The position numbers and the translations under genes were made by a program. Shown here piece after piece: positions 1,732 to 31,375 of a stretch of DNA of 31,375 nucleotides. The notes under the pieces were generated by a model. It worked only from the letters and a program-made list of their open reading frames with translations, made no database searches and was not told the DNA's origin. Position 1 is the first letter of the stretch. The number at the start of each line of letters is the position of its first letter. The stretch spans positions 1 to 31,375 of the IMG/VR virus record IMGVR_UViG_3300030000_000305; one strand, written 5' to 3'. The stretch is from a virus.

Positions 1732-1760
1732 ATAGTCTATCGGTGTATAATGTACGTTTG
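1729..1760 (+). promoter_or_regulatory. Second Bacteroides-type promoter candidate
   Basis: A perfect TAnnTTTG box (TACGTTTG) lies at 1753-1760. Twenty bases upstream is TTTA (1729-1732), one mismatch from the TTTG -33 box. It lies just after the terminator and would start a transcript near 1766 reading through the second structured stretch toward RNase H. The -33 box overlaps the terminator T-run, so it may be fortuitous. Confidence 0.35.
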
Positions 1761-2020: not shown

Positions 2021-2056
2021 TATACTTATTTAATATATAATATATCTATAAGTATA
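2021..2056. repeat. AT-rich inverted repeat upstream of RNase HI
   Basis: TATACTTAT (2021-2029) and ATAAGTATA (2048-2056) form a perfect 9-base inverted repeat around an 18-base spacer that is almost all A and T. The whole 2018-2083 stretch is extremely AT-rich. It could be an operator, a DNA-unwinding segment or a promoter region for the RNase HI operon; the sequence does not decide between these. Confidence 0.45.
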
Positions 2057-2084
2057 AGTTTATAATAATATATAATAGTATACG

Positions 2085-4390: not shown

Positions 4391-5121
4391 TGTCAAAACA
4401 AAGAATTTTATCAGAATGTACAGTAGTACAAAATCGCGTATATCTACCGGAAGAACAAATCGACCGTAAGCTTTATATGGAAGTTGCAAAAGCTTTAGAA
4501 CTTATCGGTGGTAAATGGACTGGTGGTAAAGTAAAGGCTTTTGTATTTGCTGAGGATCCAACAGATTTATTGGCAGAGATAGCCAGTGGTGAAAAACGGA
4601 ACCTAAAGAAAGAACATCAATTCTTTGGTACTCCACCGGAACTTGCTGACAGACTTGTAGAGCTTGCTCAATTAAACAACTATGACCGTGTTCTAGAGCC
4701 TAGTGCCGGACAAGGTGCTATCGTTGAAGCAATGCAACGCAAATGGCATAATATCGTGCCTACATGTGTTGAGAATATGGGACTCAATTCTATTATTCTT
4801 ACAAAGAAACAGATTACTCATTTCTTTCAAGACTTTCTTACTTCAGAATGTAATAGACCATTTGATAAGGTAATCGCTAATCCACCATTCACAAAGAATC
4901 AGGATATTGATCATATCTATAAAATGGTTGAAGTCTGTAAGCCCGGTGGAATAGTAGTATCATGTGTTTCTAATCATTGGAGAGAATCAAATAATAAGAA
5001 AGAAACTGAGTTCAGAGCTTTTCTTGATGGTATGGGTGCTGTTATTGAAGAAATACCAGCTGGTACCTTTAAAGAAAGTGGAACTATGATTGCAGCATGT
5101 ATCGCAATCATTCATGTATGA
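4390..5121 (+). CDS. DNA N6-adenine-type methyltransferase
   Basis: This is a 243-residue S-adenosylmethionine-dependent methyltransferase. Visible motifs are FFGTPPELADRLVELA (about 78-93, the usual lead-in helix), motif I VLEPSAGQGAIVEA (101-114) that binds the methyl donor, and the catalytic motif IV NPPF at 164-167, typical of N6-adenine enzymes (N/D-P-P-F/Y). It is slightly small, and a separate target-recognition domain is not obvious; the first 75 residues might serve. No restriction enzyme lies nearby, so it is an orphan, most likely protecting phage DNA from host restriction or marking it for regulation. The start overlaps the ParB-like stop by one base (TAATG). Confidence 0.85.
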   Translation: MSKQRILSECTVVQNRVYLPEEQIDRKLYMEVAKALELIGGKWTGGKVKAFVFAEDPTDLLAEIASGEKRNLKKEHQFFGTPPELADRLVELAQLNNYDRVLEPSAGQGAIVEAMQRKWHNIVPTCVENMGLNSIILTKKQITHFFQDFLTSECNRPFDKVIANPPFTKNQDIDHIYKMVEVCKPGGIVVSCVSNHWRESNNKKETEFRAFLDGMGAVIEEIPAGTFKESGTMIAACIAIIHV

Positions 5122-13218: not shown

Positions 13219-13260
13219 AAGCCATCTTTCCTATTCGTAGGTTAGATGGCTTATTTTTTT
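13219..13260. terminator. Bidirectional terminator between convergent blocks
   Basis: AGCCATCT (13220-13227) pairs with AGATGGCT (13244-13251), and inside it CCTA pairs with TAGG around a TTCG tetraloop, leaving a symmetric TT/TT internal loop. On the + strand it is followed by TATTTTTTT. On the - strand it is followed by a T-rich run complementary to CAAAAAGAAA. It therefore fits both the DUF551 gene side and the end of the 1725-residue gene. Confidence 0.85.
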
Positions 13261-16200
13261 AATTCAATTTTTCAAGATCGTCAACTTCTTTTTGTAATCG
13301 CTTAGCTCGTTTATCAGCAACTTCTTGATAGTGTTCTTTCAGTTCCTGAGCATTCATATCATTTATTTTCTTACGTGCTGTCCAGTCTTGAAGCATGTTG
13401 TCATTATCTCCTAATAACTCCATAAACCATATAGCATCATATACTGGTCCAGTATAAGCAAATAAACGCGTCCACTTCTTTTGTCCTGTCATAAGCCCCA
13501 TGATGTTGTCTATAAGGCCTGACATTGGAACAATATTACTCTTTATGGAGTCATAGTTCGAATAAGAAAGAAGTTCGCTATAAAGCCATGAAAGTTTGTC
13601 CTTATCTCTGTCACTCATTCCATTTGCTGCAAGCATGTTTATACCTACTAAAATAGAAGTAAAGAAAGTAGCACTAATCATTGACCGGGCAAGATTGTAT
13701 TTTGTCATTGGGTCCATCTCTTCCAAATCAGAAAACTTCATATCCTTAGTACGAACAACTTTTACTACATCAGAAAGATAGTTCCACATAGAAGCAAGTG
13801 TTCCCTCTATCATAATTTGTTTCTTGATAGTTTCCCATTCATTATTTTCATTCAGTTCTGCAGTAACGTCGGCACCATAAGATGTCATTCTTCTACTACC
13901 AACTAAATTGAATATCTTCCCTGGCAAGAAAGTACGGAACTGAGTAAAGATACGACCCGAGAATGTATTCCCTAAAAGCATCTTTTGATATTCATCCATA
14001 GCACCAATAATATACTTGTCAGCATACCATTTGAAACGAGTGTTTACTTCTTCAAAATCATAACCCACTTCCATATTTTCAGTATCTTTTATGATACCTT
14101 GGTCAATCATCTGTTTTGTCTTTCTATCCCAGATAGCTTGTTCTTTACCACTGATCATTTTACCCTCTTTATCAAAGTAACGAGTATCTTTCAACTTATC
14201 ATATTTCAATGTATCAGTTGTCTTATCATAGGTATGAGCTTCATAAGAACCATCATGTATCATAAATCCGACCATGGTAGTTAGTCTGGCCGCGATATCA
14301 GAATAGTAATTACCAATATGTGCCAGTTGTGATTGGAAAACGTTCTTATCAATATTTGTTGTAAAAAATGACTCAATAGCTTCCATCTCACTACCATTTA
14401 CTAAACCAAACTTCTTACCTAGCGCCATAACTTTTTTATGGTTCATAGCAAGTTCAAGATTTGCTTTAGTCATATCTTCTGGAGTAGGAAAGTTCAATCG
14501 TTTATTTTCATCAGTAAACATATTAGCAGCCTTAGTAGACAATGCTTCTATGATTTGTGACTGAGTATTGAAATAAGCTGAACGTACCCATACAAGTGGA
14601 CGATAACCAAGAGCCATGAAAGAATAAGCATTAGTGATATTCTTTACAATAGCTGCAGTCTTATCAGTAGGATCATCTTGTGACTTTCCTTTGATAATTC
14701 TGTCAGAATATTCTTTCAAAAATTCATTAGTATATTTCGTTTGAATGTTATACTCTTCTTTTAATATCTGATTCCATTGAATAGCTTTATTCATGGCAGG
14801 GATCATTCTATTCTCAATCTCAATAGTACGAATGCTATCATCTACAAACATGCTAAATACATATTCTAAGTTCATAGTCTTTTTACCATAGAATTTCAAA
14901 TCACCTTTGTATCTATTAGGTGTAGTACTGTCTGTTGGCATAAGTCCCATACGTATCATCTGTTGCTGTATAGACTGCTGAGATCGAAACCGTGAGTTCA
15001 TATGTTGATAATTATCTGAAATCAAATCATTATCAATAGTCACATCTTCTATTCCGGACATAAACTCAGAAATAGCTATTTGATCCCACCCTTTACGAAC
15101 CATCTCTTTGTATTTCTTGTCGCGGAATAACTCTTGTTTAGTCTTTTCCAAAACAGGAATATGCCCTGGAACCATTTTACTCAATAACTCATTACGCAAC
15201 TCTTCTTCTTTCTTTGGCGTTGACCGGCGCGAGTTATCATGCATTGCATTGGCAAGGTAACGTTCTTTTACTGTTTCAAGAATAAGGTCGGCCAGAGCAA
15301 TATCTTCTGTAGTAAGTCCGGCTTTCTTAGCTTCTTCGACATTGTAAGATCCATACAATTGATTATTGAGAATGATAGGAACAATATCACCTTTCTTATT
15401 CTTATCACTATCCTCAGTAAGCAATAACTCTCCTTTCTTGAATAAGTGACCAAATACTTTCTCGGGTTGATTACCGAGGATGTTTAATGACATACCACGC
15501 GATTCAAGTGATTTTGTCAGTGCATCATTAAACTTTGCTTTATAGTCATTCAATTGATTGACAATAATAGATTTTGTTGCTTCGGCTTCTACAGAATAGT
15601 ATTGAAGGATATCAGATTTAATATTGTGGATATTAGTAAACTTCAACCAAGTCTTATTGATATCTTTTACTTGTCCGTTATTGATACCTACACCTTGTTT
15701 GAACCATACAAGATACTGAGTAATCAATTTGTGTTCCGGATTGTTTATCCAATTCTTGTCTTTTATCTCTATTGCCCGGGCACGATCGCTAAGTAGTTTG
15801 AAATGTTCATAACTGTTGAAGTTATCAGTCATAGCATTTTTCTGTACTTCATCCATATTCAATGATTGATAGTAAGCAGCATAATACGTTTCTAGCTTAT
15901 CTCTCCAACTCTGGTATATACTATCCTCATTCCATGCTTTATCATCGCTTAAAAGCTCTTGAAACCATTTATACGATAATGATTTTTCATCCATGACAGC
16001 TTGTACTGATGGAAGAGTAAATAAATCTCTACCATTGGCCATTGCTTGATGAAGAGTAGAAAGCATACGTGGTTGAATAGAAGTACCATTAAAACCAATA
16101 ACACCATAGCGACGTAAGGTAAGTTTCTTATTATTCTCTTGAGCAAGTTTATTCATGCCGGCAATAGTCACTCCGAGTAATACTTGTCGTATATCTCCCT

Positions 16201-18436
16201 GACTATTGCTCATATTAAACTTACGACCTTTTTCTGATTTGTCATTACCTAAGTTTGAAGCAAGTGATTTCTTATGTGAATCCATAAGGTTATCTTGAAA
16301 CCCAAGAACGGAACCGGTTAAGTCAATAAGTGATACATCAACTTTGCTGTCAGACATAGTATGTACTATCACAATAGGATTAAAACCAACAATAGCATCA
16401 TTGTATAATGGTGCCAGCGCTTGTACGTTTGTCATATCCCGATAGTTCATAACAGTAGTCATAGGTTCGTTTATACCAAGCAATTTAATAGAACGAACAA
16501 TGTTCTCAACTACTGTATCAGAGAAACCATATTCAGAGAAAGTATCTTGAATAAGTGTTTCAAGTGGAACAGAAGTATCTGAGATATGCTTATTAAGTAT
16601 TTCGACAATATTGTTGTTGAATGAGTTCATCATCTGCTGACGACGTACTAGCATTTCATTCTTTATACTGGCCATAACTTCATTGTCCGGCATACTATTA
16701 GGATAACTATACATCTTACCATAGTCAACATAGATACGATCCTTATCTCTTTGCCAAAGGTTCGCAAATATGTTTTCAACCATCTTTTCTTTTGCTTCCG
16801 GATTTTCAAAGTTAAGTTGTCCGTACTCTTCATTGTTGATAAGGAATGGAACTACCTCAGCGACATTCTCAATAGGCTTAAATCCTATATCAGCTTCATA
16901 GAAACCATCACTATAATAGTTCTTCAATAACTGTTCTACCTCTACCGGCCCAAAATCAATAATCTTTCTACCATTAAGAATATCTTCTGTCAATGCATTG
17001 AAAATGTCATTCAATGTACCTTTCTCAAAGTTTACATTATCAAGTGCTGAGTTAGCAGTTATTTTACCAGATACTAGATTACCTATTGAAGAGAATAAGC
17101 TACTGACAATATCATATACTTTTCTGAATATATCTTTTGATCGAATAGAAGATACATAGCGATTGTTACGAGCAAGAAACTTGTTTACTTCTTTCTGTGA
17201 AGTCATACCACTTACTGCAGCAGCATATTCATAGAGTTGATGAACCTCGTCAAGCTGCCAATACTTTTTGCGTATCGAGTCCATGATTTCTTTATTGTCT
17301 GCAATTGAATCACGTACTTTACTCATAAACTGATTGTACTTATATCCATCAGTCATTTCAAGAACGTGAATCCATACGTGTGTAAGCTCATGAATAGGAG
17401 TATCAACATTCATTGATTGAGTATTCAAGTGTATTCCGGTAGCATCTACCCACGCGCGATCAGTAGCATGTTCGGTATTACGTGTTGTCTCAAAACTTTC
17501 AACTTGTATTTTAAATCCCGGTACCGCTTTCTCCAATGAATGAATAAACGAATTAGTCTTTTCTGCTGTTGCAATAAACTCTTTACGTAGCTTGTAGTCT
17601 TTAATACCTTCCGTTTCTGCCACTTTCTCCCCTATCTGAATAGATTTACCCGACTTAGTGATAATGTTGTCATTTTCGTCAAGTATGTAATCATTTTCTG
17701 ATATAGTATTCTTAGCAACAAATTTTTTGAATCCAGTAATATCTAATTCAGAACCTAATTGATATACATCATTCTTAGTATATATAGATAAAACTTGATT
17801 ACCCGCATCTAATCCAACAACAGTATCACTATTATCAATTAATTTATCAATATCTATATTTTTATTTACCCATAAATTTTCTCTTTCAGTTTCTCTTCCG
17901 CTTTTATCTATAAGTTCAGCATCTAATTCAATATTGTATTTCCTTAAATCAAGTACATTGTTTGAATTTATGATAAATGGTTTTACATTTTTACCAAATA
18001 CTTTAGCATAATTTTCATCCGGTGTAAAGTATTTCCCATTTTTATTATTTTCGTTTTCACCTCTAAATAATATTTCTTTGTTTTTGCTATCAGGGAATAT
18101 ACTTTCAATATATTTTGAATATTGTTGCTTAGTTCCAATAGTACTAAGTTTATCATTATCATTAAATAATTGATCAACTCCATTTTTAATCTTAGTTGTA
18201 TCTTGACCACTGAGAACAGAAAACTTTTCAGTAAACATATTCGCGCGATACTTCACTGCTTTATCTACACCATAGCGTTCCACTAACTGCTGGTATATTA
18301 AAGATGGATTCCCATCAGCCGTTAAGCTGACAGGATTACCATTGTTCTTTGCATAGATAGTATGTGCTTTACCATCTCCGACGATTGCTGATAAGGCTTT
18401 GTATTCCTTATCATTTTTGTTAGGACATTTACTCAT
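13259..18436 (-). CDS. Giant polyvalent protein: ART-like and HExxH metallopeptidase
   Basis: This is a 1725-residue protein. Residues 1-80 resemble the opening of phage polyvalent proteins. Residues 118-230 resemble an ADP-ribosyltransferase of the ART-PolyVal kind, with LFRGE at 123-127, GKYFTPDENYAKVFG at 134-148, NSNNVLDLRKY and a closing VVGLDAG to VYQLGSE segment. HELTH at 349-353 with a downstream YEYAAAVSG glutamate (about 402) fits a zinc metallopeptidase. A region near 680-790 with VSLIDLTG looks like a PD-(D/E)XK strand but lacks the lysine. A hydrophobic segment near the C-terminus (ISATFFTSILVGINMLA) and a coiled-coil tail follow. It lies 8 bases after the larger giant gene, so the two are probably co-transcribed. 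A packaged, ejected protein is the likeliest role (inference). Confidence 0.9.
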   Translation of the reverse strand: MSKCPNKNDKEYKALSAIVGDGKAHTIYAKNNGNPVSLTADGNPSLIYQQLVERYGVDKAVKYRANMFTEKFSVLSGQDTTKIKNGVDQLFNDNDKLSTIGTKQQYSKYIESIFPDSKNKEILFRGENENNKNGKYFTPDENYAKVFGKNVKPFIINSNNVLDLRKYNIELDAELIDKSGRETERENLWVNKNIDIDKLIDNSDTVVGLDAGNQVLSIYTKNDVYQLGSELDITGFKKFVAKNTISENDYILDENDNIITKSGKSIQIGEKVAETEGIKDYKLRKEFIATAEKTNSFIHSLEKAVPGFKIQVESFETTRNTEHATDRAWVDATGIHLNTQSMNVDTPIHELTHVWIHVLEMTDGYKYNQFMSKVRDSIADNKEIMDSIRKKYWQLDEVHQLYEYAAAVSGMTSQKEVNKFLARNNRYVSSIRSKDIFRKVYDIVSSLFSSIGNLVSGKITANSALDNVNFEKGTLNDIFNALTEDILNGRKIIDFGPVEVEQLLKNYYSDGFYEADIGFKPIENVAEVVPFLINNEEYGQLNFENPEAKEKMVENIFANLWQRDKDRIYVDYGKMYSYPNSMPDNEVMASIKNEMLVRRQQMMNSFNNNIVEILNKHISDTSVPLETLIQDTFSEYGFSDTVVENIVRSIKLLGINEPMTTVMNYRDMTNVQALAPLYNDAIVGFNPIVIVHTMSDSKVDVSLIDLTGSVLGFQDNLMDSHKKSLASNLGNDKSEKGRKFNMSNSQGDIRQVLLGVTIAGMNKLAQENNKKLTLRRYGVIGFNGTSIQPRMLSTLHQAMANGRDLFTLPSVQAVMDEKSLSYKWFQELLSDDKAWNEDSIYQSWRDKLETYYAAYYQSLNMDEVQKNAMTDNFNSYEHFKLLSDRARAIEIKDKNWINNPEHKLITQYLVWFKQGVGINNGQVKDINKTWLKFTNIHNIKSDILQYYSVEAEATKSIIVNQLNDYKAKFNDALTKSLESRGMSLNILGNQPEKVFGHLFKKGELLLTEDSDKNKKGDIVPIILNNQLYGSYNVEEAKKAGLTTEDIALADLILETVKERYLANAMHDNSRRSTPKKEEELRNELLSKMVPGHIPVLEKTKQELFRDKKYKEMVRKGWDQIAISEFMSGIEDVTIDNDLISDNYQHMNSRFRSQQSIQQQMIRMGLMPTDSTTPNRYKGDLKFYGKKTMNLEYVFSMFVDDSIRTIEIENRMIPAMNKAIQWNQILKEEYNIQTKYTNEFLKEYSDRIIKGKSQDDPTDKTAAIVKNITNAYSFMALGYRPLVWVRSAYFNTQSQIIEALSTKAANMFTDENKRLNFPTPEDMTKANLELAMNHKKVMALGKKFGLVNGSEMEAIESFFTTNIDKNVFQSQLAHIGNYYSDIAARLTTMVGFMIHDGSYEAHTYDKTTDTLKYDKLKDTRYFDKEGKMISGKEQAIWDRKTKQMIDQGIIKDTENMEVGYDFEEVNTRFKWYADKYIIGAMDEYQKMLLGNTFSGRIFTQFRTFLPGKIFNLVGSRRMTSYGADVTAELNENNEWETIKKQIMIEGTLASMWNYLSDVVKVVRTKDMKFSDLEEMDPMTKYNLARSMISATFFTSILVGINMLAANGMSDRDKDKLSWLYSELLSYSNYDSIKSNIVPMSGLIDNIMGLMTGQKKWTRLFAYTGPVYDAIWFMELLGDNDNMLQDWTARKKINDMNAQELKEHYQEVADKRAKRLQKEVDDLEKLN
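17378..17392 (-). other. HExxH zinc site of the 1725-residue protein
   Basis: These codons encode HELTH (residues 349-353) in TPIHELTHVWIHVLEM, a textbook zincin helix. A glutamate about 50 residues on, in LYEYAAAVSG, is the likely third zinc ligand. Confidence 0.75.
17747..18085 (-). other. ADP-ribosyltransferase-like region of the 1725-residue protein
   Basis: Residues about 118-230 keep the order seen in ART-PolyVal domains: an R-containing first strand (LFRG), an aromatic-F-T segment (KYFTPD) followed by a helix with AKVFG, an N-rich strand leading to LDL, and a last part with DAGNQVLSIYTKNDVYQLGSE that could hold the catalytic glutamate. The assignment is from pattern alone; residues of the active site cannot be fixed without an alignment. 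Confidence 0.45.
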
Positions 18437-18444: not shown

Positions 18445-21400
18445 TTATTTACATTTATTTTTTTCATCATTATTATCTGACTCATTATCTTGTGCCGGAG
18501 TACCAATAGCGGGTTCACCTTCTGCAACTTCTTTCTTGCTATCTTTCTTTGCTATCTCACTATCGAATAGTTCAAGTGATCCTTCCAATGTATTCAACAT
18601 TTCAGAACGTTTGCTTTCTGTTGCTTTCATCTCAGCACGTACTGCCGGATTAATCATTTCAACAATAGCACTACGAGCAACCTTTCCATAAGTAGTAATC
18701 CCTACTGACATATCTTCAACTTCTTTATTGAAAGTAGTTTTCTGATTAGCTAAGAAATCAGTTGATGAAATCTTACTAGTAAGTTGTTCCACCATGTTCT
18801 TTCCTTGACTACTGATATAAGCCAATGCACGTGCTTGTACTAATGCTTTTACTATCAATGATTGTTTGAAATTGAGTTGTGCCATAGCAATCTTTATTTG
18901 CTTAATCTCATTGGCATTCTTCTCAGTTTCCACAACTTGAACATCATCAACTAAATTACGAATATATTTATTGATTTTGTTTCTTCTGTGTTCTTCATTT
19001 TGATAGTTCTTCAAGTCCCAAGGAAAGTTCTTTGTCTTTTCTCCGATAGTACTTAATACTTTGTATTTGTAAGCATCAAGAACCTCATTGATAGAATTGA
19101 ATTTGTTCTTATTGTCAAAAATTGATATACGAGTTTCAACACCATCATTTGTAAGAGTATTTATGTTCAACTGACTTAAGAACATATTCCCTTTTACTTT
19201 GTATTCCATTGGTTTTGTAACTTCATTCTCAGTAAGTGAAGTAGCATTCGGATCAAAAATAGAATGTTGTAATGTTCCCTCCTTAAGTTGAATCCTATTG
19301 TTACGTTTCTGAGTATCCATTTCCTTTTGTTCCATACGATAAGTGATATCTGAATCGTTAGCAAGACGATATTCAAAATTAGTTCCTTTTACTTTAATAA
19401 CACGTATTAATTTTCCACTTCTTGTATATAGAAATTGTCCTTCCGATACCCATGCACGTGAACCTTGATGTAATATCAAATCATTATTATCCCGATTAGC
19501 AAGACTAAGATTGTATTCTTCTTCCGGTGTAGTCTGAAATGAGCGTAATTCAGAAGTCATATTCTCTCCGGCCATAGTAGACATACCTAAAGAAGTAATG
19601 TTTCCAAATACTTCATAAGCATTGTTATCATTCAGTTTTAAATTTATTCTATGTCCGGTGTTTACTTTCTCACCATCTATAGTTTTTGTCTCAAACTGAT
19701 AAGCATACTTAGGACTATTTTCATTTACTACTGCTTTTGGACTTAGATATTGTGCAAACTCAGGTTGTAATCCAAGATAGTCATAGATACGCTCACGAAT
19801 GTCTGAATTGAATGTAACGGACTTTCTGTACTTATTTGGTACAAGACTATCAAGACCAAGAGAAGAGCGCAATTCGGCGTATGTATCGTTATACACTTTG
19901 CTTATTGGTCCTTTGTAGAAATCTACACCTATCACTTGAAGTAAACCACCTTGACGATATGACATTCTATTGGCAATAATCTCATAGTTGATAAGCATTT
20001 CTTTATATTCTTTTGGAAGAGAATTAAAGTAGTCTTTCAACTGAGCAACGCGCTGTTCTGTCATTTCTTTAGTATTGACATCAAGTAATAATTTCACATC
20101 AAACTTACCACCAATAGTAAATAGTTTGATAAGAGGATTAACTGCAAATCTTATCCATTCTTCTGCCGGCAACTCACTTTGTACTGTCTTATTCAAATAA
20201 TCAATATTATCAGAATGCTCAACAATATCCATCATAAATTGAGGAAAGTTCTTTACAAATGATTGTCTATCAAAAAGACTTGATAAATCCAAGTTCTGTG
20301 ATGGGTTTTCATAAGTATTACCAACAGCTTGATAGATATACTGACCTTTCATGATAGCACTTTCTCCAATGGTAGCATAGTACTTGTCAAGCATAATATC
20401 GTTTATCGCGGTACTTACTGCAGCGACTTCACCACCGAAGTTCAGTGTTGTTCTATTCTGTAATTTCAAGAATGATTTTACAACATCTTTTTCAATAGCT
20501 TCATTATCGGCCATAAATGACTGTTTAGTGATAAGTTCTTGACGATACAGTTCTTGCAAGATATAATCAATCTGAGGTAAGTTCTTGATAAGTTTACCCA
20601 TATTAATTTCATTAGCTACCAATTGTTCTTGGGAGAACATAAAAGCTTTTTTCTTTTCATCTTGTTCTTTATTGTAAGCATCATTGTTTATGGTATAGTA
20701 AGCCATATGTTTAGCAACATTCATATCACTTGCCGGATTAGAATTGTATTCTTGCAATGACATACCAATAGTTTGTTGTACGGTATTAATCATTGTTCTG
20801 AAATCCTTATCCAATGAAGGAATACCATTACGCATTCCCATGATAGTAGAAAGACGATACAAAGCATCTGCGGTAACACTAAGCTTAGGAACCATTTTCA
20901 TGTAACGTAAACCTTGTATGTCGGTCCTGGCAATATTTATGTTTGCACGAGAACGCACCATTAGTTTTAATTCATTAGCAACTTCTGTAGAAATGCTATC
21001 CAAGTCTTTAATATCAAAATTCGATACATCAGTTTTATCAAAAACAATTTTATTGTTCTTATAAGTAAATAGGTTTTCATCATCAAATCCATTATCTTTT
21101 TTCCATTGTTGAAGTAATTGTTCTTTATCTGATCCAGTAAAGTCATAAGGACTATTTTTGAATGCTTCTTTATTGTTTTTATAATATGAAGTAAGTTCTT
21201 TCATTAGAAGATCATCAATAGACTGTTGTAATAATACATCAGTTGTTTCAAGTTCTAATGAATACTTTTCTGTATCATGAACATTACTTTTCCATGATAG
21301 TCCTTTTGATTCTAACCATTGAGATACATTGGTATTATTGAAATGTTCAATACGAGAAGCTATTTTATCCACTTCTGTTGAGGCCATCTTCCAAAGATTG

Positions 21401-24400
21401 AAGTCAGCACTCTTAGTCATTATAGAAGTCTTACCAGAGTAAGTATGGAATAGATTACGTATATTCTTGTTATTAAAGAAATCATACACTTCACTATTAT
21501 TCATACCATTCAATTTCAGTACTGCAAGAATATTGATACCAACCGGACTAATTGCGTAGTTCGCGAATGTATTGTTCTTGGCATTATCCAATGCTCCTTG
21601 TCCCCATGTTCCTAGTTCAATAACAAAACCATTCAGACCGGTCTTGATTTTACCTTTAGGTGCATTCTCATTGATAAAGTTTTGTATTCCAGAATGGGTA
21701 CCAGTTTCTACAAACTTATTTACTGAGCTTGAAATAATAATGGACGATACTGTCAATGAATTAGCAAGAATACCAATAGCATCAGCACCGGCTTTATTTC
21801 TTGAATACGATTCATAGATAGAACGAATAGAGTTGTTCTGTAAATTATCTACTAATTTTTCTTTCTGTTTCATCACTTCATTAATCTTATCTAATGAAGA
21901 GGTAAGGAATAAAGACTCTTGATTGCCACTATGAAGCGTAATAGTGTTACGTAAGGCATTCATTTTGTTTCTATGACCATCTGCACCTTTTTGAATAATA
22001 TGGCCTTTAGAATCAAGAGAATTAGAATACATTGTCAATGCATCAATATCATAATCGGAGTCATTACGTAATGTCATACCCGTTGGGATATAAACCACGT
22101 TACCACCATTATGAAACATTGCTGTTTTGAACACACCACCCGATCCTAAGAACGTTGCCGGAACACGTGATAAGAATGAAGTATTTGATTCTTCAAAATC
22201 TTTCAATAATTGTTGTGCTTCAGTAAGAATTTGTTCGAGTATTTCACCACTACCCATTAATGCAGCAATTACTTTGTCTGGATTAGCCAGGTCAGTAGAT
22301 TGCAGTTCCATTGAATTGATAGCTTCTAAGATTGATTCATTAGTAGCATTTACTTCTGATTGTAATTCCTCAGTAGTCATTTCTCTAGTACTATCAATCA
22401 AGTTAGCAATACGTTTACTGATAAAACGCTTTCCATCATTATCAACAGAAGGATTTATAAGTTCATCAACATACGTTTCTATTTTCAAGTTTTTGATAGC
22501 TTTACGTATCATTGGTGAGTCTACAAATGCACTCCATTGATTCAATGACATATCAGCATCCTCAGATAGACCGGCCATTAATTTATCATATAAATTAGAA
22601 CTGTCCAATGCAATTCTTTCAGTACCCAAATTGATATGTTGAATGTCTATCAATGATTCATTACTTCTATGACCATATACTTTAGCATATACATTTGGCA
22701 TGGAGATATGACCAACAGTAGTTTTACCATTTACGATATTCATATCTTGTAATCGTTGCATAGTAAATCCTGCAGCAGCGAGTTCTTGATTCATAGCATC
22801 ACTATTATATTCATCAAATGAATAGTCACGATAATTTGTACCGGGTCTTAATTCATTAATAGCATCATTACGAGAATATATCTTACCATCACGTACAAAC
22901 TCTTCTAAGTACTCTCCAACAGTTTGTGTAAGACGAATACCTTTTGTTCTTGCTTGAATAGATTGATTGGCCATGTTACGGTATGACTGTAGTACTTTAG
23001 AACGCATCATAGGCAATTGCATAGAAACATCCATATCACTGAATAATTCAATGAATGCCATATCTTGTCCAGAAGTACGCAAGCTATTTACTACACGATC
23101 ACGCATAAAGTCCATCAATTGTTTTATTGCTGGATCAATTTCTGATTTTTGTTGTTCGGTAAGTGTAGAAACATCATACTTAGACCAATCAATATTTTTG
23201 AATTGTTTTGCAGCTTCTACTTCTCCATACTTAGATATTGATTCTTCAAGTTCTTTACGTAATGCTGTTTGAAGTCCTTGTTTGTTCTCCATATAAGCAC
23301 TGTAAAGACTTGATATCTCAGGATTATTACTAACACCTAAACCGGTAGCATCTTGTTGTGATGGTGCTGCCTGCAGTTTTGCATTGATATCAGTATCTTG
23401 TGATGGATTCATTACTATCTTAGTCTTGGTATTATCCACAACATCCATGTTTAATGGCTGACTGTAATCAACGTCATTTAAGGCATCGTAAGTATTGACT
23501 GAGGTAACTGAACCTTTCTGTGTAGATACTGGCGCCATGAAAGCCACAATGCTATTGTACATGTGTCCGGCACGTTCTATACCATCAGGATTAATAGTTA
23601 TTCTATCTTGATAGTATTGTTGGTTATCTATCCAGTTCATCATATCTACAATGATGTCATTAAACTCTTTTTGATTGTTTTTATCATCATACAATTCTTT
23701 GAACTTATCAGTAAATGAAAGTTTGTTTTCATTAAATGATTCTTCACCAACCCTAGCAACTAACTGACGATCTGTTTCAGCAAGCATACGCATAAACATA
23801 TTTCGGTAGTAGGTATGTTGCATATCAAAACCAGTAATGACTTTATCCCCACGTTTAATCTGTGAGTAAGTACCATCAGCTCTTCGAAAGTTAGTAAGAC
23901 CTTTATACATGGAAGCATTACCAATTACTGTTTTAGTACCACCAATAGAGTTTAAGGTCTGCAAGTAATGGAATGGATTAATAGTTATCTGACCATCTTC
24001 CGGTTTCATCATATTACCATTATTTGCCAATACTTTTTGACCATCAATTTCTTGATAAGTATTACCACCATCAACCATATTATCCCTATAGAATACAATA
24101 GGACTTTCTGTAGTCAATGTAGGTGTATGTAATTGATATCTTACATTATTCTGTACAACTTCTTTCGTTCCTTGGGTAAGTACACTTTGTGCCGGTGTAT
24201 GAATAGGACCATTACGTTTTACCTTATCAAGATAGTTCTTGAAAGAGAATGGATTCAATGAAAAATCATCAATATGATTATTGGCAAACATAGTAGCCAT
24301 ATAGAAACCAAACATAGGTTGATTAAAACGTATCTCTGATTTTTCAAGTTGTTGATAATACGGATTCTTATCAGTAGTATTTGTTGGGTTTTTATCACCA

Positions 24401-27400
24401 ATAGTATTTTTGGTAAGATTATTCATTGACTGAACCGGTTTAAAACCATAGTTCGCAATCATATCAGTAAACTTAGCAAAGTCATTTTCAAATAACCGCA
24501 TGATAGCTCTTTCCAATTTAGGAAGACTTTCTACTTTTCCACTCTTTACATCATTAGTAAGACTTCTAATCTTTTCAATTTTTGATTGTTTATTAATCAT
24601 ATTGAATTGATCTATTTTACCGGTTACTGCATTACCTGGTATAATGACATCAATACCATCAACTGTTTCATAAGAAAGTTCATAACTTCCTTTACCGCTT
24701 AAATCTTTAGTAAGAGAAGTTGCATCAAACATATTACGTAATTGGTCAAAAGTACCATTTGCTTGAGCTTCTTTGGAAACATCAATCATCTGTTTACGTA
24801 ATCCTTTGGTAAAATGAGCTTCATTATTTTCTGCCGGTGCATTCAAGAACTTCGTTTTGGTAGATAATGATTTGTTTATCTCCATAAGTGCGTTGTTCAG
24901 ATTTGAACGTGAAGTATTAATACGTTTTTTGATTTTATCGTATTCACGTAATACTTCTGTTCCGGCAACTGAATAATCAATATTAAAACCATTATCGGTA
25001 TTGATAAGTGTTGACTCTACTTTGGCAAAGATTATTTTACCAGTATCCGATACTGTTGTAGTAGGAACATAAATAACCGGCCGAGCTTTTGATTTTACCA
25101 TTTCTTGCATAAACATGTTGATACTCGTGTCAATGAAGTCAGAAGTATCAATTTTTGTTTTTCCAATAGAAGTAAATCCAAGTGAACGGTTTTCTCCGAT
25201 ACTTTCTATAAAGCCAGTAATCTTAGTTGTATCTGTAGGGTCTTGTTTAAAGGCATCAAACTCTTCATTGAGTGTAGTCTTTAAAGCAACTGAATAAGTG
25301 GCTGTACCCTTAGCTGTGTAACGATGGGTATCATTTGTTTGTCCACCTAGTTTCTGCTGTATAGAAGCAATCATATTTGATGATACAAACATATCTTCCG
25401 GAGTAACATATCTCATAGAAGATACATCATTAGTTATCTCTTCATTTTCTACAATGTCAGGTTGTACTTCAAAAGTAATAAGGTTCTTTGGTGTTGTTCT
25501 ATTTAGGAAGCCAAGAACTATATCACTTCCGGTAATACTCTGGATGCGTGTCAATGGTGATAAACTTTCTTTTGTATTATATCGAATATGATTTAATAGG
25601 TTACGTTGTATGATAACTTTCTTAGCCGGTTTATTAATGTCCTCATTAGCTTTTAAAGTTTCTTCTGTATAGTTTTTAGAATATTGATTATACAATGTAA
25701 TCATGGCACCTAAATAATCAGCCATAAAATCTGATGGAGTAGCATAATTGGCTTGTATCTCAGAATTGAAATTACTTACATATCCAATCTTATTAATAGT
25801 TTTCATATTATCAGTAACCTCTGACCAACTATTAGCAACCATAAGACTCTTGAACATGGCCGGAGTAACACCTTTTAATGCAAACTGTCCTTTGATACGA
25901 TTAAAGATGTCTACTATATGCGCGTATTCTCCTTTGGTATTAAGCATATCAGTAGAGAAAGGTGACATAGTAGTATTACCAAACTTTTTAGATGTAGCAA
26001 TAACACCTTCTTTATTTGCAAATTTGAATCTACCATTTTCGTATTTTAAGAAACTAGTTTTATTAGTAACATTATTATACCGGCTTACCTTAATATCAGT
26101 ATAGTCAATAGACATATTTTCTTTAAAGAATGATATTGAATTTGTGTTCAACTCACCATTCAAAATCTTATATCCTTGAATACGTTTAATCTCTTCGGCG
26201 GTACCTCTCCAAAAGTCTTTATAGTAATGAGTAGACTTCATAGTATCATCATAGTAAGTGAACTTAACCTGGTCTTTTACATTGAAAGAAGTATATACAC
26301 TTACCAATGAATTTAAAAGGTCTTTAGCCTGTTCTATCTTACGTTTTTGATCTTCTTGTTTAGCATCCCATGACCATGTAGCATCAGAGTTCTGCGCTCC
26401 TACTTCTTGTTTCCATTCTTGTTCATTTTGATAAGAACGTTCAAGTAGTCCTTTATAACGACCATCATAGTTTTCTTCTGAGATATAATGATTAGAATAG
26501 TCAAGTGAGAAATCAGTTCCTTTACCTTTTGCTTCAAACATGTAGTTGTACATGCTATGAATTACTTCGGCTGCCGGATTCAAATATCTGTTTGATTCAT
26601 CAATTTCAGAATTATCAATGAATCCTTCCATAATAGATTTTAATGCAGATACTTTATCAGTAACACCATCCATTTGACTTACTCGCATACCAAGGTCTAT
26701 CATCAATGAATGAACTTGTTTCTGATCTAAGAACTTTACTTTTCCGCGGGCATCAAATACAGCACTACCATTTGTATTGATAAGTGGTATAGAACTAAGA
26801 TATAGTTTTTGTATATCGGAAACATTCTGTTCAGAAGAATAACCATCCCAATCAAAACGTTCACCGGCACCCACTTCTTTTTCAAATGAGTCATTCATCA
26901 TATCATATGATGGAAGCATAGTCTGCACAATCATTCTAATATTTTTATCAGAATAGATTTTGTATGCATCAATACTATTCCGGCCATTGATATCAGAAAG
27001 TTTAATATTCAAAGGTTCTCCATTCTCAACAATATCTTTTACTGCCATTTCATTTTCTTCAAGTTCTCCTTGTTCATTTTGAGTAATAACAGTGGCCATA
27101 GTTTCACCATACAATTCTTGATATTCTTTTCCTTCTTCAATAATAGAATTAATACTTTCCGATAATGAATTAATATTACTGTTTTTTGTATTGGAGAAAA
27201 TAGAGTTTTGAAGTATAGACATTCTTAGTCCGGACTTAGCAATAACTAATGATTCAGTATTGTAAAGTTCTTTCTTTAATGCTTCTTCCATCTGACTGGC
27301 AATAAGTAATCGTTTGCTAGAACTTTCATTTGTTGATTGTACTGTTTCTTCAGAAGTAGTATCACTTTCATATTCTTCAAAAGCAATATCTGATTTTTCA

Positions 27401-30400
27401 GTATTCATTTCTGGAACCCTATTAGCAAACTCGCCATTGTTTATTTGATTGTATAAGTTCTTCAACTGTTTGTTTGAACCATATACACCGCGAAGTCCCA
27501 TAACGATATCTTTCAAGAAACTCTTGAACTGATTGTATAAACGCAAAGCAATATTTACATTCTTGTCTTTAGTAGTCGCACGTTCTTGTTTTGCATAATC
27601 ACGAGCAATCCATTCTTCAAGTTCTTTATCACCATTGATAGGTGTTCCTTGTTCATACTTGTTGATTACCTGGGCCGCTTGTAATAGCATTGCTTTAGCA
27701 TCAGTATTTATGAAGTTACGATAGACAACATGTAATACTTCATGGTCAACTGTAGAACGTGGCATCATACCATTCTCTGCTGCTAATGTCATGATAGTAT
27801 TATCTTGTACCATACCACTTGCAGTAAGACCATTTAAACGAATCTTTCCTTCTTGTGTAAGGAATAGTTCAGATTCAGTATAAGACTGTCCTAAACGTAA
27901 AGCAACACGGTCTATTGACTGTTGTATAGGTTCTACATCAGGAGAAGAGTATTGTGTTTCTTCAAGTCCTATATTTGGAAGTTTTTTCTTTCCCGGTTTA
28001 TTTACTGGTGGAGTTGGTGAAGTTATTGGTTCTACTTTATCAAGACCTACATAGAATGATTTATTGTTTATGCCCAAAGCTTGTACATTAAGCATATCAA
28101 TAGTTTCTTTACCACTAACATGAGTAGTATAAGTTTCATTGTTTAATGTCAAGAAATCATATAATCCGGACATAGCAAGATTATCTTTCTTAGAAAGAAA
28201 ATCACTTAGTTCTTTATACTGTGAATCAAAACCACTATTACGATCTTTATCTGTCTTGAAAGAATCAAGATTGATATCCAAGAATGTTTTACTTTTTTGC
28301 TGAATCTTAATAAATGCAAAGATTGCTTTATCAGTTGCCTGAGTAGAGTTCTTTAAAGTAGAAAGGTTCGCGCGCAATAATTTATAAATAGTAGTTTTTG
28401 AGAATGCTGTTTGTTTGGCTTTCCACTTTTGTTCATCTGATAAAATAGTAGATGATAATATTTCTTGTGAAATAAAGTCCTCTTCTGCCTTAATACGTCC
28501 AATGATAGAATCCATAGAAGCATTTGCGCGCTGTTTAATGGTTTCATTCTTGCTAGTAATAGACTGGCTAAACTTAGGCATTTGTACTACTAAACGAATA
28601 CTTTCATTACTATTTAATTGAACATTTAAACGTAATCTGCCATCAATATACAATGGAGTTATATCAGTTTGTGCGCCAGGGAAGTCTTTCAACAAATCAG
28701 TTACCGTTGTCAAATCACTTTCATTATTTGAATACTCTACTTTACGAATACCCATATCATGAAAATCAACATTTACCTTATCAGTAATACTTGCATGAGT
28801 ATCATAGATAGACATGTTCATATCACGTTGTTTAATCAATTCAGATTGAACCGGTGCGAAAATAGGATTATTGATAACAGCATTCCATGCATCTACTAGT
28901 CGTTGTTTCTCAGTTTTCTGTTTTTCAAGTTCAGTTTCCTTTACATCAAATGAAGTATAAGAAATCTTACCACTTCCATCAATACTAATAACTGATGGTA
29001 GAGTCATAGAACCAATAGCATTGGAAAACTTACCACCATTTAATCCCGGAGTAGTAAATATGTCATTGATGATAGAATATACTGGTATATCCATTGCTTT
29101 TATAGATGTACCATTAGGATTTACTGAATGCTTTTTAATAATGGCATTTACATAATCCTCAGCAATAGTTCCCATAAAGATATCTTGAATGGCTTGTAAC
29201 TGTTCTCCTACCAATCCTTTGTTAGTTGGATCAAAAGAAAGAACAATCATATCGTACTTTGCAGTCTTATTATCCTTATCCCATCCGGTAGTATTTTGTT
29301 TCTCAGCTTTTAATTGAAACAAATGTTTATACTGTGATAGGTTCGATATAAAGGCGTCATTTATTGCACGACGTAACTTACCATTCTCTTGACTTAAACT
29401 ATCGCTAGCACCAACTAAAGTAGCACTGGTAGCCCAGAAAATATGTGACTTGTTTTTGTTCTTATCGAATATAGCAGTAGAGTTGTTCAAGAAGCGTTCA
29501 CGCGATAACTGACTTACTTCATTTGGAACAACTGGTTTCACTTCTTCAATGATTGCAGTAGGTACCGAGAAATCTTCGTTATCTGAAAGTACTGTTGATA
29601 CTGTTTGATTTTCGTCAGGGTATATACCGGTTATCTCATACTGAGTAGAGCCATCAGAGAATACAGATTCATTGATAGATAATAATTGAAATATGTCTTT
29701 TTCATTATTGTCATAATAACTTTCACCAACCTTTAATGCAGTTCCTTTATGTTCATAATCTTCAACAGAATTTTCTTCTACTAATGTAATAGGATTCTCT
29801 GTTGATTGACTTGTACGAAGAATACTTTCAAAACCCGTAATATGTTTGATAAGATTATCTTTAATTGAAATATTTGGATCAATAGTATTATTGAATTTTG
29901 TTTGACCATTCCAATTAATAGAAAGGACATCACGATTACCAACTTTCTTTATTTCCCAATCAGCATCTACTGTTGCAGTATCTATTAAATCACCATCAGC
30001 ATTAAAGTAATTAATCTTTAATCCTACCTCTTTACCCGAAGTTTGATTCTGATTATTATTACTAGGGTTTGGAGTGGTCACTGTAGGGTTAGCAATAGGT
30101 GCTGTTGCCACTTTCTGTGCTTCCATACTCATACTATTCATATCAGTATTTAAACCCTGTAAACGCAATGTTTCAATAGCTCTGAATTTTTCCTTTTGTT
30201 GTAGCTGAATAGCATTCAATGCTTCTTCCGGTAAACCAGTAGATGCAGCAAGAGAACGGTCAACATTCAAAGAAGTATCACCAACCATACCATACCAAGA
30301 GCTAGAACGACCAATAGCAGTATAAAGTGCTGAGGCCATTAAACTTGTAGTAATAGGTTTTGCTATCTGACTACTATCAGACTGTCTGAATACAGCATAG

Positions 30401-31375
30401 ATTTCTTTCTGACGTAATCCTTGCAGTAGTTTATTATCATTGACACCGCGACGTAAAGCAAAATAGATTTTATCCTTATTTGCTTCTATTTGTTTTTTAA
30501 GTGTATCATTGTCTTTAGTAAACGCATCCAGTGCATCCTGATCTAAGAAAATAGCTGCTCTATCCGGATTGGTAGCAAGACCATCTATGAACGAGTTCCA
30601 TACATCCATGTGTGATGCAAAGAAACGCGCTCCTAATTTAGTCTTACCACTTATATCTTCTGTCACCTTATCAAACTTTACTATTCTACCAATGGCACCA
30701 ATAGCCGGGCGACATGCTTCTGCAAGTTGACGAAGTAATGGAGAAGTAGCACTAAATTGTTCAGTAAGCATGTGCGTAGTCATTGTCTGCAACATCATCA
30801 AAGGATAATGACCTACAGAACCTGCATCACGCATTTGGAATACATCACCCATGAATACTAATTTGGCTTTTGTATTTACAAAATGTTCTTTGATAGCTTT
30901 CATTTCATTTTCAGAAACAAGTGATGCTTCATCAATAACATAAGTATTTCCTTCTGTAGTATTCATACTCTTCATTCCTTTGATAAAATCAGTATATGAT
31001 ATTACTGTTGGATTTTCAGCACCAAAAGATTGTTTATGTACCTTAGAAAGTTCTTCCGTAATACTTACTACTGTTAGTTTACCTACTGATGATTTCTTAT
31101 CAGTACTATATCCATCAAGTCCGCGAAGTATTCTAAATGCTCTTCCTACAGTGAACTGAGTCTTTCCAGTACCATAATCTCCACCAATAGTCAATGCATT
31201 GCTTAGATAGCTTTCTATGAAGTGATGGCCACCCTTCTCAGTAGCTATTGAATGCATAGGTAAAAAGTAATTTGCAAATAACGACAAAGGACTTGTAAGC
31301 GTTTTATTGCTTAAAAGTCCAACTATTGAATTGATTGCAGCTTCTTGTTCTCCCGTTTCTAATGGTGTATTTGAC
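18445..31375 (-). CDS. Giant helicase-metallopeptidase-RNA polymerase polyprotein (5' partial)
   Basis: The frame is open to the right edge and shows 4309 residues; the true start lies outside. A TTG at 31287 is only an internal codon, because a helicase Q-motif-like GEQEAAI lies upstream of it. Numbering from that TTG: an SF1 helicase spans 1-330 (GDYGTGKT 36-43, VIDEAS 117-122, MGDVFQ 146-151, LYTAIGR 321-327); a Pro/Asn-rich linker lies near 396-416 and another near 1087-1103; a zinc metallopeptidase has HEVLH at 1182-1186 and EEWIAR near 1224; and an RNA polymerase catalytic loop SDYDIDAL has DYDID at 3078-3082. The last 30 residues are acidic and charged. The DxDxD motif matches virion RNA polymerases of crAss-like phages. 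The rest, over 3000 residues, has no assigned motif. Confidence 0.9.
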   Translation of the reverse strand, partial: SNTPLETGEQEAAINSIVGLLSNKTLTSPLSLFANYFLPMHSIATEKGGHHFIESYLSNALTIGGDYGTGKTQFTVGRAFRILRGLDGYSTDKKSSVGKLTVVSITEELSKVHKQSFGAENPTVISYTDFIKGMKSMNTTEGNTYVIDEASLVSENEMKAIKEHFVNTKAKLVFMGDVFQMRDAGSVGHYPLMMLQTMTTHMLTEQFSATSPLLRQLAEACRPAIGAIGRIVKFDKVTEDISGKTKLGARFFASHMDVWNSFIDGLATNPDRAAIFLDQDALDAFTKDNDTLKKQIEANKDKIYFALRRGVNDNKLLQGLRQKEIYAVFRQSDSSQIAKPITTSLMASALYTAIGRSSSWYGMVGDTSLNVDRSLAASTGLPEEALNAIQLQQKEKFRAIETLRLQGLNTDMNSMSMEAQKVATAPIANPTVTTPNPSNNNQNQTSGKEVGLKINYFNADGDLIDTATVDADWEIKKVGNRDVLSINWNGQTKFNNTIDPNISIKDNLIKHITGFESILRTSQSTENPITLVEENSVEDYEHKGTALKVGESYYDNNEKDIFQLLSINESVFSDGSTQYEITGIYPDENQTVSTVLSDNEDFSVPTAIIEEVKPVVPNEVSQLSRERFLNNSTAIFDKNKNKSHIFWATSATLVGASDSLSQENGKLRRAINDAFISNLSQYKHLFQLKAEKQNTTGWDKDNKTAKYDMIVLSFDPTNKGLVGEQLQAIQDIFMGTIAEDYVNAIIKKHSVNPNGTSIKAMDIPVYSIINDIFTTPGLNGGKFSNAIGSMTLPSVISIDGSGKISYTSFDVKETELEKQKTEKQRLVDAWNAVINNPIFAPVQSELIKQRDMNMSIYDTHASITDKVNVDFHDMGIRKVEYSNNESDLTTVTDLLKDFPGAQTDITPLYIDGRLRLNVQLNSNESIRLVVQMPKFSQSITSKNETIKQRANASMDSIIGRIKAEEDFISQEILSSTILSDEQKWKAKQTAFSKTTIYKLLRANLSTLKNSTQATDKAIFAFIKIQQKSKTFLDINLDSFKTDKDRNSGFDSQYKELSDFLSKKDNLAMSGLYDFLTLNNETYTTHVSGKETIDMLNVQALGINNKSFYVGLDKVEPITSPTPPVNKPGKKKLPNIGLEETQYSSPDVEPIQQSIDRVALRLGQSYTESELFLTQEGKIRLNGLTASGMVQDNTIMTLAAENGMMPRSTVDHEVLHVVYRNFINTDAKAMLLQAAQVINKYEQGTPINGDKELEEWIARDYAKQERATTKDKNVNIALRLYNQFKSFLKDIVMGLRGVYGSNKQLKNLYNQINNGEFANRVPEMNTEKSDIAFEEYESDTTSEETVQSTNESSSKRLLIASQMEEALKKELYNTESLVIAKSGLRMSILQNSIFSNTKNSNINSLSESINSIIEEGKEYQELYGETMATVITQNEQGELEENEMAVKDIVENGEPLNIKLSDINGRNSIDAYKIYSDKNIRMIVQTMLPSYDMMNDSFEKEVGAGERFDWDGYSSEQNVSDIQKLYLSSIPLINTNGSAVFDARGKVKFLDQKQVHSLMIDLGMRVSQMDGVTDKVSALKSIMEGFIDNSEIDESNRYLNPAAEVIHSMYNYMFEAKGKGTDFSLDYSNHYISEENYDGRYKGLLERSYQNEQEWKQEVGAQNSDATWSWDAKQEDQKRKIEQAKDLLNSLVSVYTSFNVKDQVKFTYYDDTMKSTHYYKDFWRGTAEEIKRIQGYKILNGELNTNSISFFKENMSIDYTDIKVSRYNNVTNKTSFLKYENGRFKFANKEGVIATSKKFGNTTMSPFSTDMLNTKGEYAHIVDIFNRIKGQFALKGVTPAMFKSLMVANSWSEVTDNMKTINKIGYVSNFNSEIQANYATPSDFMADYLGAMITLYNQYSKNYTEETLKANEDINKPAKKVIIQRNLLNHIRYNTKESLSPLTRIQSITGSDIVLGFLNRTTPKNLITFEVQPDIVENEEITNDVSSMRYVTPEDMFVSSNMIASIQQKLGGQTNDTHRYTAKGTATYSVALKTTLNEEFDAFKQDPTDTTKITGFIESIGENRSLGFTSIGKTKIDTSDFIDTSINMFMQEMVKSKARPVIYVPTTTVSDTGKIIFAKVESTLINTDNGFNIDYSVAGTEVLREYDKIKKRINTSRSNLNNALMEINKSLSTKTKFLNAPAENNEAHFTKGLRKQMIDVSKEAQANGTFDQLRNMFDATSLTKDLSGKGSYELSYETVDGIDVIIPGNAVTGKIDQFNMINKQSKIEKIRSLTNDVKSGKVESLPKLERAIMRLFENDFAKFTDMIANYGFKPVQSMNNLTKNTIGDKNPTNTTDKNPYYQQLEKSEIRFNQPMFGFYMATMFANNHIDDFSLNPFSFKNYLDKVKRNGPIHTPAQSVLTQGTKEVVQNNVRYQLHTPTLTTESPIVFYRDNMVDGGNTYQEIDGQKVLANNGNMMKPEDGQITINPFHYLQTLNSIGGTKTVIGNASMYKGLTNFRRADGTYSQIKRGDKVITGFDMQHTYYRNMFMRMLAETDRQLVARVGEESFNENKLSFTDKFKELYDDKNNQKEFNDIIVDMMNWIDNQQYYQDRITINPDGIERAGHMYNSIVAFMAPVSTQKGSVTSVNTYDALNDVDYSQPLNMDVVDNTKTKIVMNPSQDTDINAKLQAAPSQQDATGLGVSNNPEISSLYSAYMENKQGLQTALRKELEESISKYGEVEAAKQFKNIDWSKYDVSTLTEQQKSEIDPAIKQLMDFMRDRVVNSLRTSGQDMAFIELFSDMDVSMQLPMMRSKVLQSYRNMANQSIQARTKGIRLTQTVGEYLEEFVRDGKIYSRNDAINELRPGTNYRDYSFDEYNSDAMNQELAAAGFTMQRLQDMNIVNGKTTVGHISMPNVYAKVYGHRSNESLIDIQHINLGTERIALDSSNLYDKLMAGLSEDADMSLNQWSAFVDSPMIRKAIKNLKIETYVDELINPSVDNDGKRFISKRIANLIDSTREMTTEELQSEVNATNESILEAINSMELQSTDLANPDKVIAALMGSGEILEQILTEAQQLLKDFEESNTSFLSRVPATFLGSGGVFKTAMFHNGGNVVYIPTGMTLRNDSDYDIDALTMYSNSLDSKGHIIQKGADGHRNKMNALRNTITLHSGNQESLFLTSSLDKINEVMKQKEKLVDNLQNNSIRSIYESYSRNKAGADAIGILANSLTVSSIIISSSVNKFVETGTHSGIQNFINENAPKGKIKTGLNGFVIELGTWGQGALDNAKNNTFANYAISPVGINILAVLKLNGMNNSEVYDFFNNKNIRNLFHTYSGKTSIMTKSADFNLWKMASTEVDKIASRIEHFNNTNVSQWLESKGLSWKSNVHDTEKYSLELETTDVLLQQSIDDLLMKELTSYYKNNKEAFKNSPYDFTGSDKEQLLQQWKKDNGFDDENLFTYKNNKIVFDKTDVSNFDIKDLDSISTEVANELKLMVRSRANINIARTDIQGLRYMKMVPKLSVTADALYRLSTIMGMRNGIPSLDKDFRTMINTVQQTIGMSLQEYNSNPASDMNVAKHMAYYTINNDAYNKEQDEKKKAFMFSQEQLVANEINMGKLIKNLPQIDYILQELYRQELITKQSFMADNEAIEKDVVKSFLKLQNRTTLNFGGEVAAVSTAINDIMLDKYYATIGESAIMKGQYIYQAVGNTYENPSQNLDLSSLFDRQSFVKNFPQFMMDIVEHSDNIDYLNKTVQSELPAEEWIRFAVNPLIKLFTIGGKFDVKLLLDVNTKEMTEQRVAQLKDYFNSLPKEYKEMLINYEIIANRMSYRQGGLLQVIGVDFYKGPISKVYNDTYAELRSSLGLDSLVPNKYRKSVTFNSDIRERIYDYLGLQPEFAQYLSPKAVVNENSPKYAYQFETKTIDGEKVNTGHRINLKLNDNNAYEVFGNITSLGMSTMAGENMTSELRSFQTTPEEEYNLSLANRDNNDLILHQGSRAWVSEGQFLYTRSGKLIRVIKVKGTNFEYRLANDSDITYRMEQKEMDTQKRNNRIQLKEGTLQHSIFDPNATSLTENEVTKPMEYKVKGNMFLSQLNINTLTNDGVETRISIFDNKNKFNSINEVLDAYKYKVLSTIGEKTKNFPWDLKNYQNEEHRRNKINKYIRNLVDDVQVVETEKNANEIKQIKIAMAQLNFKQSLIVKALVQARALAYISSQGKNMVEQLTSKISSTDFLANQKTTFNKEVEDMSVGITTYGKVARSAIVEMINPAVRAEMKATESKRSEMLNTLEGSLELFDSEIAKKDSKKEVAEGEPAIGTPAQDNESDNNDEKNKCK
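22042..22056 (-). other. RNA polymerase DxDxD catalytic motif
   Basis: These codons encode DYDID within VVYIPTGMTLRNDSDYDIDA. The context, a strand ending in a proline and then S/G-D-aromatic-D-I-D, is that of the double-psi beta-barrel loop that holds the catalytic magnesium in crAss-like phage and related two-barrel RNA polymerases. SRVPATFLGSGG about 30 residues before it and KAGADAIGILANSLT about 90 residues after it fit the same enzyme class. Confidence 0.8.
27448..27840 (-). other. Zinc metallopeptidase-like domain of the giant protein
   Basis: VDHEVLHVVYRNF gives HExxH at 27730-27744. ELEEWIARDYAK follows about 40 residues later and offers the third ligand. The end of the region (QLKNLYNQINNGEFANR) matches the close of metallopeptidase domains found in phage polyvalent proteins. 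Confidence 0.7.
30298..31375 (-). other. SF1 helicase domain of the giant protein
   Basis: Motifs occur in the correct order for a RecD/Pif1-like SF1B helicase: Q-motif GEQEAAI upstream of residue 1, Walker A GGDYGTGKTQ, Walker B YVIDEAS, motif III LVFMGDVFQMRD, motif IV LTEQFSATSPLLRQLAEACR and motif VI ALYTAIGRSSS. All key residues are present, so the domain is probably active in ATP hydrolysis. Confidence 0.8.

Follow-up and report, generated by a model that had tools for sequence, protein, structure and literature searches.

Background

The polymerase gene of crAss-like phages is, according to a review, a hallmark of the group that can reach about 6,000 residues (PMC10136315), and the large multidomain proteins with a DxDxD motif that these phages encode are described as extremely divergent (PMC7886860). 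The structural reference is phi14:2 gp66 (PDB 6VR4; gp77 in KC821624 and g066 in NC_021806). Three polymerase-associated proteins are described from crAss001 virions, together with a model of ejection with partial unfolding (PMC10172136). In single-chain two-barrel polymerases the partner barrel precedes the catalytic barrel (PMC10770324), and the same source describes P23-45 gp96, a two-barrel virion polymerase within a 5,002-residue phage protein, and suggests that fusions of this type may link the entry of DNA to the first transcription.

From the records matched in our searches we hand-picked 14 public crAss-like polymerase genes, and six of them exceed 4,300 residues, all from Suoliviridae (cr272_1 with 6,386 residues, the maximum, cr273_1 with 5,794, cr118_1 with 4,946, cr50_1 with 4,774, cr1_1 with 4,551 and cr52_1 with 4,464) and all with an HExxH pattern upstream of the polymerase motif. 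The polymerase genes of cr272_1, cr124_1, cr52_1 and cr273_1 (loci L020, L041, L042 and L044) contain 36-41 in-frame TAG codons. Public labels on the giant polymerase are partial or misleading in L041, L042, L043 and L052, where they read DNA helicase, exonuclease V, nuclear pore complex protein-like and DprA-like.

Results

The giant gene and its source phage

The stretch analyzed here (the window) is a virus record of 31,375 bases, and its features are collected in Table 1. The largest is a minus-strand frame that runs uninterrupted from the window edge to its stop, with 4,280 residues counted from the first TTG (31287); since the edge truncates it at the 5' end, the protein has at least 4,309 residues. 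Residues are numbered in the open frame throughout, so that DYDID begins at residue 3107, which is exactly residue 3078 from that TTG, as the sequence-only reading of this DNA had placed it.

Table 1. Features of the giant polymerase gene and its neighbour in the window.
Feature	Positions	Strand	Remarks
Giant polymerase gene, 5' end lost at window edge	18445..31374	-	4,309 residues here
AAA_30 helicase segment, residues 62-222, Walker A GGDYGTGKT	30709..31191	-	Pfam PF13604, E 1e-10
Zincin peptidase-like domain 1, residues about 1170-1320, borders approximate	27415..27867	-	HExxH and downstream E
RNA polymerase core, residues 2257-3194	21793..24606	-	27-row profile, 51.0 bits, E 6.7e-16
Partner (beta-like) barrel region, residues about 2368-2671	23362..24273	-	approximate, inferred; model 62-365
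Catalytic (beta-prime-like) double-psi barrel with insertions, residues about 2808-3157, predicted	21904..22953	-	model 502-851
ISMPNVYAKVYG, residues 2890-2901	22672..22707	-	within the predicted catalytic barrel
DYDID, putative catalytic metal-binding aspartates D3107, D3109, D3111	22042..22056	-	I and all three D invariant across 30 rows
ALDNAKN, conserved element downstream	21574..21594	-	its D invariant in 22 rows of alignment A2
Downstream neighbour gene, 1,725 residues, second zincin motif HELTH at 17378-17392	13259..18436	-	

Five IMG/VR loci belong to the same phage (96-100% identity across a 1,001-residue query), and they include longer contigs. In one of these, G002 (86,401 bases), the giant is intact, with 5,834 residues and an ATG start, and it stands after the structural genes and before a gene of 1,561 residues. 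This copy and the giant in the window share 94.8% identity across 4,309 residues, their 4,309 codons align with zero gaps, and dN/dS between them is 0.088 overall and 0.023 at residues 3069-3313, which indicates purifying selection; the gapless alignment together with the low dN/dS argues that the giant frame is real. The 1,725-residue neighbour in the window is the positional counterpart of phi14:2 gp76 and crAss001 gp49.

The G002 contig gave PHROGs matches to terminase (E 3.6e-60), portal (E 3.2e-41) and major head protein (E 1.8e-27). A tblastn search with TerL against 50,697 phage records matched 136, all below 60% identity, with the best 15 of the 136 at 25-28%, and the six phages among those 15 whose taxonomy was obtained are all Crassvirales and all Suoliviridae. 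The head protein matched 17 records, the best 15 of them at 22-25% identity, and the gene order resembles that of phi14:2 and of Suoliviridae. By its TerL and head protein matches this is thus a divergent crAss-like (Crassvirales) phage. The position of its helicase differs from that in the two Suoliviridae giants scanned, and we do not file it as Suoliviridae.

Near the start of the plus-strand block of the window, RNase H and ParB-like genes adjoin at 2085-4387 (+). A methyltransferase-like ORF lies at 4390-5121 (+). Its top three PHROG matches by score include inner portions of very long phage protein profiles (1,259 to 3,431 positions), so that the ORF resembles a giant-protein domain turned into a separate gene.

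Homology of the core to phi14:2 gp66

When the giant or its motif region was searched directly against PHROGs, PDB sequences, INPHARED and GTDB genome contigs, no match was found. A search of 317 targets with an HMM built from 14 named crAss-like cores left the giant unlisted at E<=10, with other G002 frames reaching 7.5 bits, and after two bridges were added the giant again stayed unlisted at E<=10 (best shuffle, 3.3 bits). The link to gp66 requires environmental relatives. In hhalign, two near-identical copies of the giant gave 16% against the 14 cores (score 40.4) and 90.7% once the bridges were added (66.0). Taken segment by segment, the two motif-bearing segments reached 32.4 and 40.5 against the 14 cores and 44.8 and 66.0 with the bridges, and the motif-free controls (for each profile four other segments, one reversed and six shuffled) stayed at or below 28.7 and 27.5, respectively.

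The relatives came from IMG/VR. The core in the window matched G006 at E 9.6e-11 over query residues 466-626, and the crAss-like HMM gave the 6,663-residue giant of G006 25.7 bits. A second scan, in which loci were fetched by patterns including SD[YF]DID and retained by tblastn resemblance to the giant, yielded 61 loci, 56 of them not from the source phage (G006 again among them). One of the 56, L086, matched across the full 701-residue query (27% identity, E 2e-48), and the remaining 55 gave shorter matches, mostly only around the motif. A 27-row profile that left out the window giant, its G002 copy and L086 then matched the giant at the bit score given in Table 1, from which a large bias correction (33.9 bits) is already subtracted; the best of 200 shuffles reached 0.9 bits and the reversed sequence was unlisted at E<=10. 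It should be noted that this profile leans towards the giant, since its rows were chosen partly by motif patterns and by tblastn resemblance to the giant itself. The match, about 900 residues long, reaches well beyond the DYDID motif. Searched against all PDB sequences, the 30-row profile A3 found 6VR4, the phi14:2 polymerase, at E 4.4e-68, with the runner-up at E 0.052, and hhalign of A3 against phi14:2 gave 99.9% (E 3.9e-33). These profile computations show homology between the core and phi14:2 gp66 across about 900 residues.

Sixteen residues are at least 90% conserved in 28 rows and identical in gp66, namely K2386, R2387, K2507, K2620, Q2673, G2812, Q2817, R3070, P3072, S3078, S3106, D3107, D3109, I3110, D3111 and N3136, and the invariant K, K, Q, R, P, S, D, D, I and D of the alignment are all unchanged in gp66. 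D3107, D3109 and D3111 align with gp66 D1361, D1363 and D1365. The invariant K2507 (23854-23856) and K2620 (23515-23517) correspond to gp66 K1027 and K1065, and we infer that both belong to the active site of the partner barrel.

The motif by itself is weak evidence, and it is the sequence around DYDID that identifies the polymerase. A scan of IMG/VR with the pattern xDYDIDAL returned 19 stretches, five from the same phage and 14 others, and of these 14, judged by the look of their context, 13 lie in unrelated proteins and one in a polymerase (G006); we therefore rejected the motif alone as evidence. The presence of D[FY]D[IVL]D in all 61 loci of the second scan was likewise set aside, as the search pattern itself contained the motif.

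Predicted structure and the two barrels

A first model (residues 2587-3436, pLDDT 55.7) had 6VR4 as its best match (Foldseek E 2.5e-3, Z 11.9). A second model (residues 2307-3336) has a mean pLDDT of 60.9 and a pTM of 0.62, with many core blocks at 75-93, so that its confidence is moderate overall and uneven in the partner barrel. Foldseek again placed 6VR4 best, at E 1e-7 with the runner-up at 0.11, and VIA aligned model residues 61-856 onto chain residues 874-1505 (Z 15.2, rmsd 4.0, 474 residues). After 6VR4 the VIA Z scores were 13.8 for QDE-1, 11.1 for ZmRDR2, 9.4 for P23-45 gp96, 9.2 for P74 gp62 and 8.9 for P32 gp64, and beta-prime and Rpb1 chains among the best 50 matches listed had 8.9-8.6. 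The predicted fold is not independent of crAss-like polymerases, as the alignment behind the model contains them.

The matches also indicate where the two barrels would lie. Single-chain enzymes align from about model residue 62 (gp62 from 40), whereas the multi-subunit chains among the matches listed align from residue 494 or later, mostly to 843-853 and in three cases to 870-892. Model residues 502-851 align with about residues 345-495 of E. coli beta-prime and with Rpb1-type chains, and in the model the DxDxD sits in a double-psi barrel. Model residues 62-365 are aligned by single-chain two-barrel polymerases and lie outside the range of the beta-prime chains. From these two starting points, and from the order known for single-chain enzymes, it follows that the partner barrel would lie upstream of the catalytic one, probably around the invariant K2507 and K2620, and the model thus places two barrels in one polypeptide. 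The sequence-only reading had offered ISMPNVYAKVYG as a candidate for the partner barrel. This segment corresponds to model residues 584-595, within the stretch aligned with the beta-prime and Rpb1 catalytic barrel, and it was rejected in that role, as it would belong to the catalytic DxDxD barrel itself.

The two comparisons named in that reading, a structure prediction set against gp66 and a profile search with crAss-like alignments, both came out in favour of a crAss-like virion-type polymerase core, the second although the 14-core HMM did not list the giant.

The helicase, the zincin motifs and their placement in relatives

The polymerase core, an N-terminal helicase and a zincin motif all lie in one chain of 5,834 residues, in keeping with the earlier claim that the core shares its chain with a helicase and a peptidase. 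The order is an unmatched N-terminus of ~1,500 residues, the AAA_30 helicase, the zincin with HEVLH at residue 1211 (27730-27744), the polymerase core and a C-terminal part. The helicase is likewise N-terminal in G002, L086 and L121; G006 has a Walker A pattern only, and Pfam gave no families in either of the two pieces searched. The first 1,500 residues of the giant showed no significant homology to phi14:2 gp78 or to the Suoliviridae N-termini, and the best N-terminal comparison was that of G006 with gp78 (E 0.002, 14% identity). Within this region in G002 (L015:8661-13160), residues 611-630 exceed a 19-residue hydropathy cut and residues 388-430 look hydrophobic by eye; such stretches might fit a channel or ejection role.

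The HExxH and downstream E of the G002 copy align with the zincin region of the six Suoliviridae giants. Across the 56 relatives, in which many frames are truncated by locus ends, HExxH occurs in the same frame as the polymerase motif upstream of it in 32 and downstream in 17. Fourteen relatives bear DYDID, and HExxH follows 803-1,192 residues past the motif in eight (L087, L098, L099, L121, L125, L127, L130 and L131) and is absent there in six. Five of the eight also have an upstream HExxH; L130 is cut short, and L098 and L099 are without one. L125, L127 and L131 share one sequence from 38 residues ahead of the motif onward. When the downstream HExxH of five loci was aligned, G006, L121 and L125 resembled the second zincin of the source phage, and L098 and L099 did so less. 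The break between the polymerase gene and its neighbour is thus not essential. G006 (L076/L077; IMGVR_UViG_3300001335_000566, 23216-43207, -) has two HExxH and the polymerase motif in its 6,663-residue frame, and the product of the neighbour gene seems to be fused there to the polymerase.

Comparison with described polymerases

The core shares with phi14:2 gp66 its single chain, a DxDID motif (DFDID in gp66, DYDID here), the invariant K1027, K1065, Q1240, R1322 and P1324 and a gene with a zincin motif next to it. In contrast, gp66 has only 2,180 residues, HExxH and Walker A patterns are absent from its chain, and identity is 9-14% in sequence and structure alignments. The giant is thus much larger than gp66, as the sequence-only reading had stressed, but its size is not exceptional among crAss-like polymerases, given the six public giants, and it belongs to an already known kind.

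The Suoliviridae giants resemble the source phage in having a chain of more than 4,300 residues with a zincin motif upstream of the core, and cr272_1, the only one checked for this, has a neighbour gene with its own HExxH. An AAA_30 helicase is present in the polymerase chain of both giants scanned, cr118_1 and cr50_1, but there it is C-terminal of the core, whereas in the source phage it is N-terminal of both zincin and core. Three of the six Suoliviridae giants have in-frame TAG codons, in contrast to none in the giant gene of the window. The likeness to QDE-1-type RNA-interference polymerases (Z 13.8 over 269 residues) is one of predicted fold only, as these are cellular enzymes without a giant fusion. 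P23-45 gp96 is likewise a two-barrel polymerase within a giant phage protein, but in that long-tailed phage the fusion partner is described as the tail tape measure and the clamp domain as absent (PMC10770324).

Discussion

Based on the profile matches and the predicted fold, we propose that the DYDID segment very probably forms the catalytic centre of a crAss-like virion-type RNA polymerase with both barrels in a single chain. By analogy with studied relatives, whose roles are drawn from PMC7886860, PMC10136315 and PMC10172136, the giant would be made late and packed in the virion, would enter the cell ahead of the DNA in a partly unfolded form, and would then refold and, independently of the host polymerase, transcribe the early genes. 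The same cargo would also bring in the helicase and the zincins.

The sequence-only reading had raised delivery of the enzyme within a polyprotein. On this view the chain's own zincins would cut it, either while the virion is assembled or once it has entered the cell, into a helicase, a polymerase and further parts. The idea is suggested by the zincin motif within the chain, by the second one in the neighbour gene and by the 17 relatives whose frame has an HExxH past the polymerase motif. We consider it unlikely, in that the downstream HExxH is absent in the other 39 of the 56, the pattern can arise by chance, and a zincin could instead target host proteins or be structural. Moreover, neither a cleavage site nor a processed product was seen, and the polymerase proteins identified by mass spectrometry in crAss001 virions come from separate genes (PMC10172136). 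No report of cleavage of crAss-like giant polymerases was found among the matches listed in the open-licence literature. Two further readings concern whether the protein is packed in the particle and whether it is a polymerase at all. Phage P23-45 offers in gp64 a precedent for a non-virion polymerase (PMC10770324), made in the cell for later genes, but the giant gene comes after the structural block on the same strand, an arrangement shared with phi14:2, whose equivalent genes carry a structural annotation from mass spectrometry, and such a role is very unlikely here. Giant multidomain phage proteins are also known to be used in host conflicts (PMC5512222), and the giant could be a polyvalent anti-defence protein of this kind, with a barrel other than that of a polymerase; this is highly improbable given the predicted fold of the core and its gp66-type invariant residues.

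Returning to the virion polymerase, we can extend the proposal into a speculation that we regard as rather improbable as a whole. An environmental crAss-like lineage would deliver one chain of 5,800-6,700 residues, made up of an unmatched and perhaps channel-forming N-terminus, a helicase, a zincin, the two-barrel polymerase and in some members a second zincin, which would be cut or trimmed in the cell by its own peptidases, so that entry, unwinding and first transcription would be mechanically coupled.

What is worth keeping from this analysis is the divergent lineage, the corrected barrel map and the variable placement of the helicase and the second zincin. The giant crAss-like virion polymerase would thereby be extended to a divergent lineage that ordinary family searches miss, and the residues that survive such divergence are revealed. 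The variable fusion of the second zincin, and a helicase that can stand on either side of the core, may serve as natural experiments on whether these parts act as a single machine.
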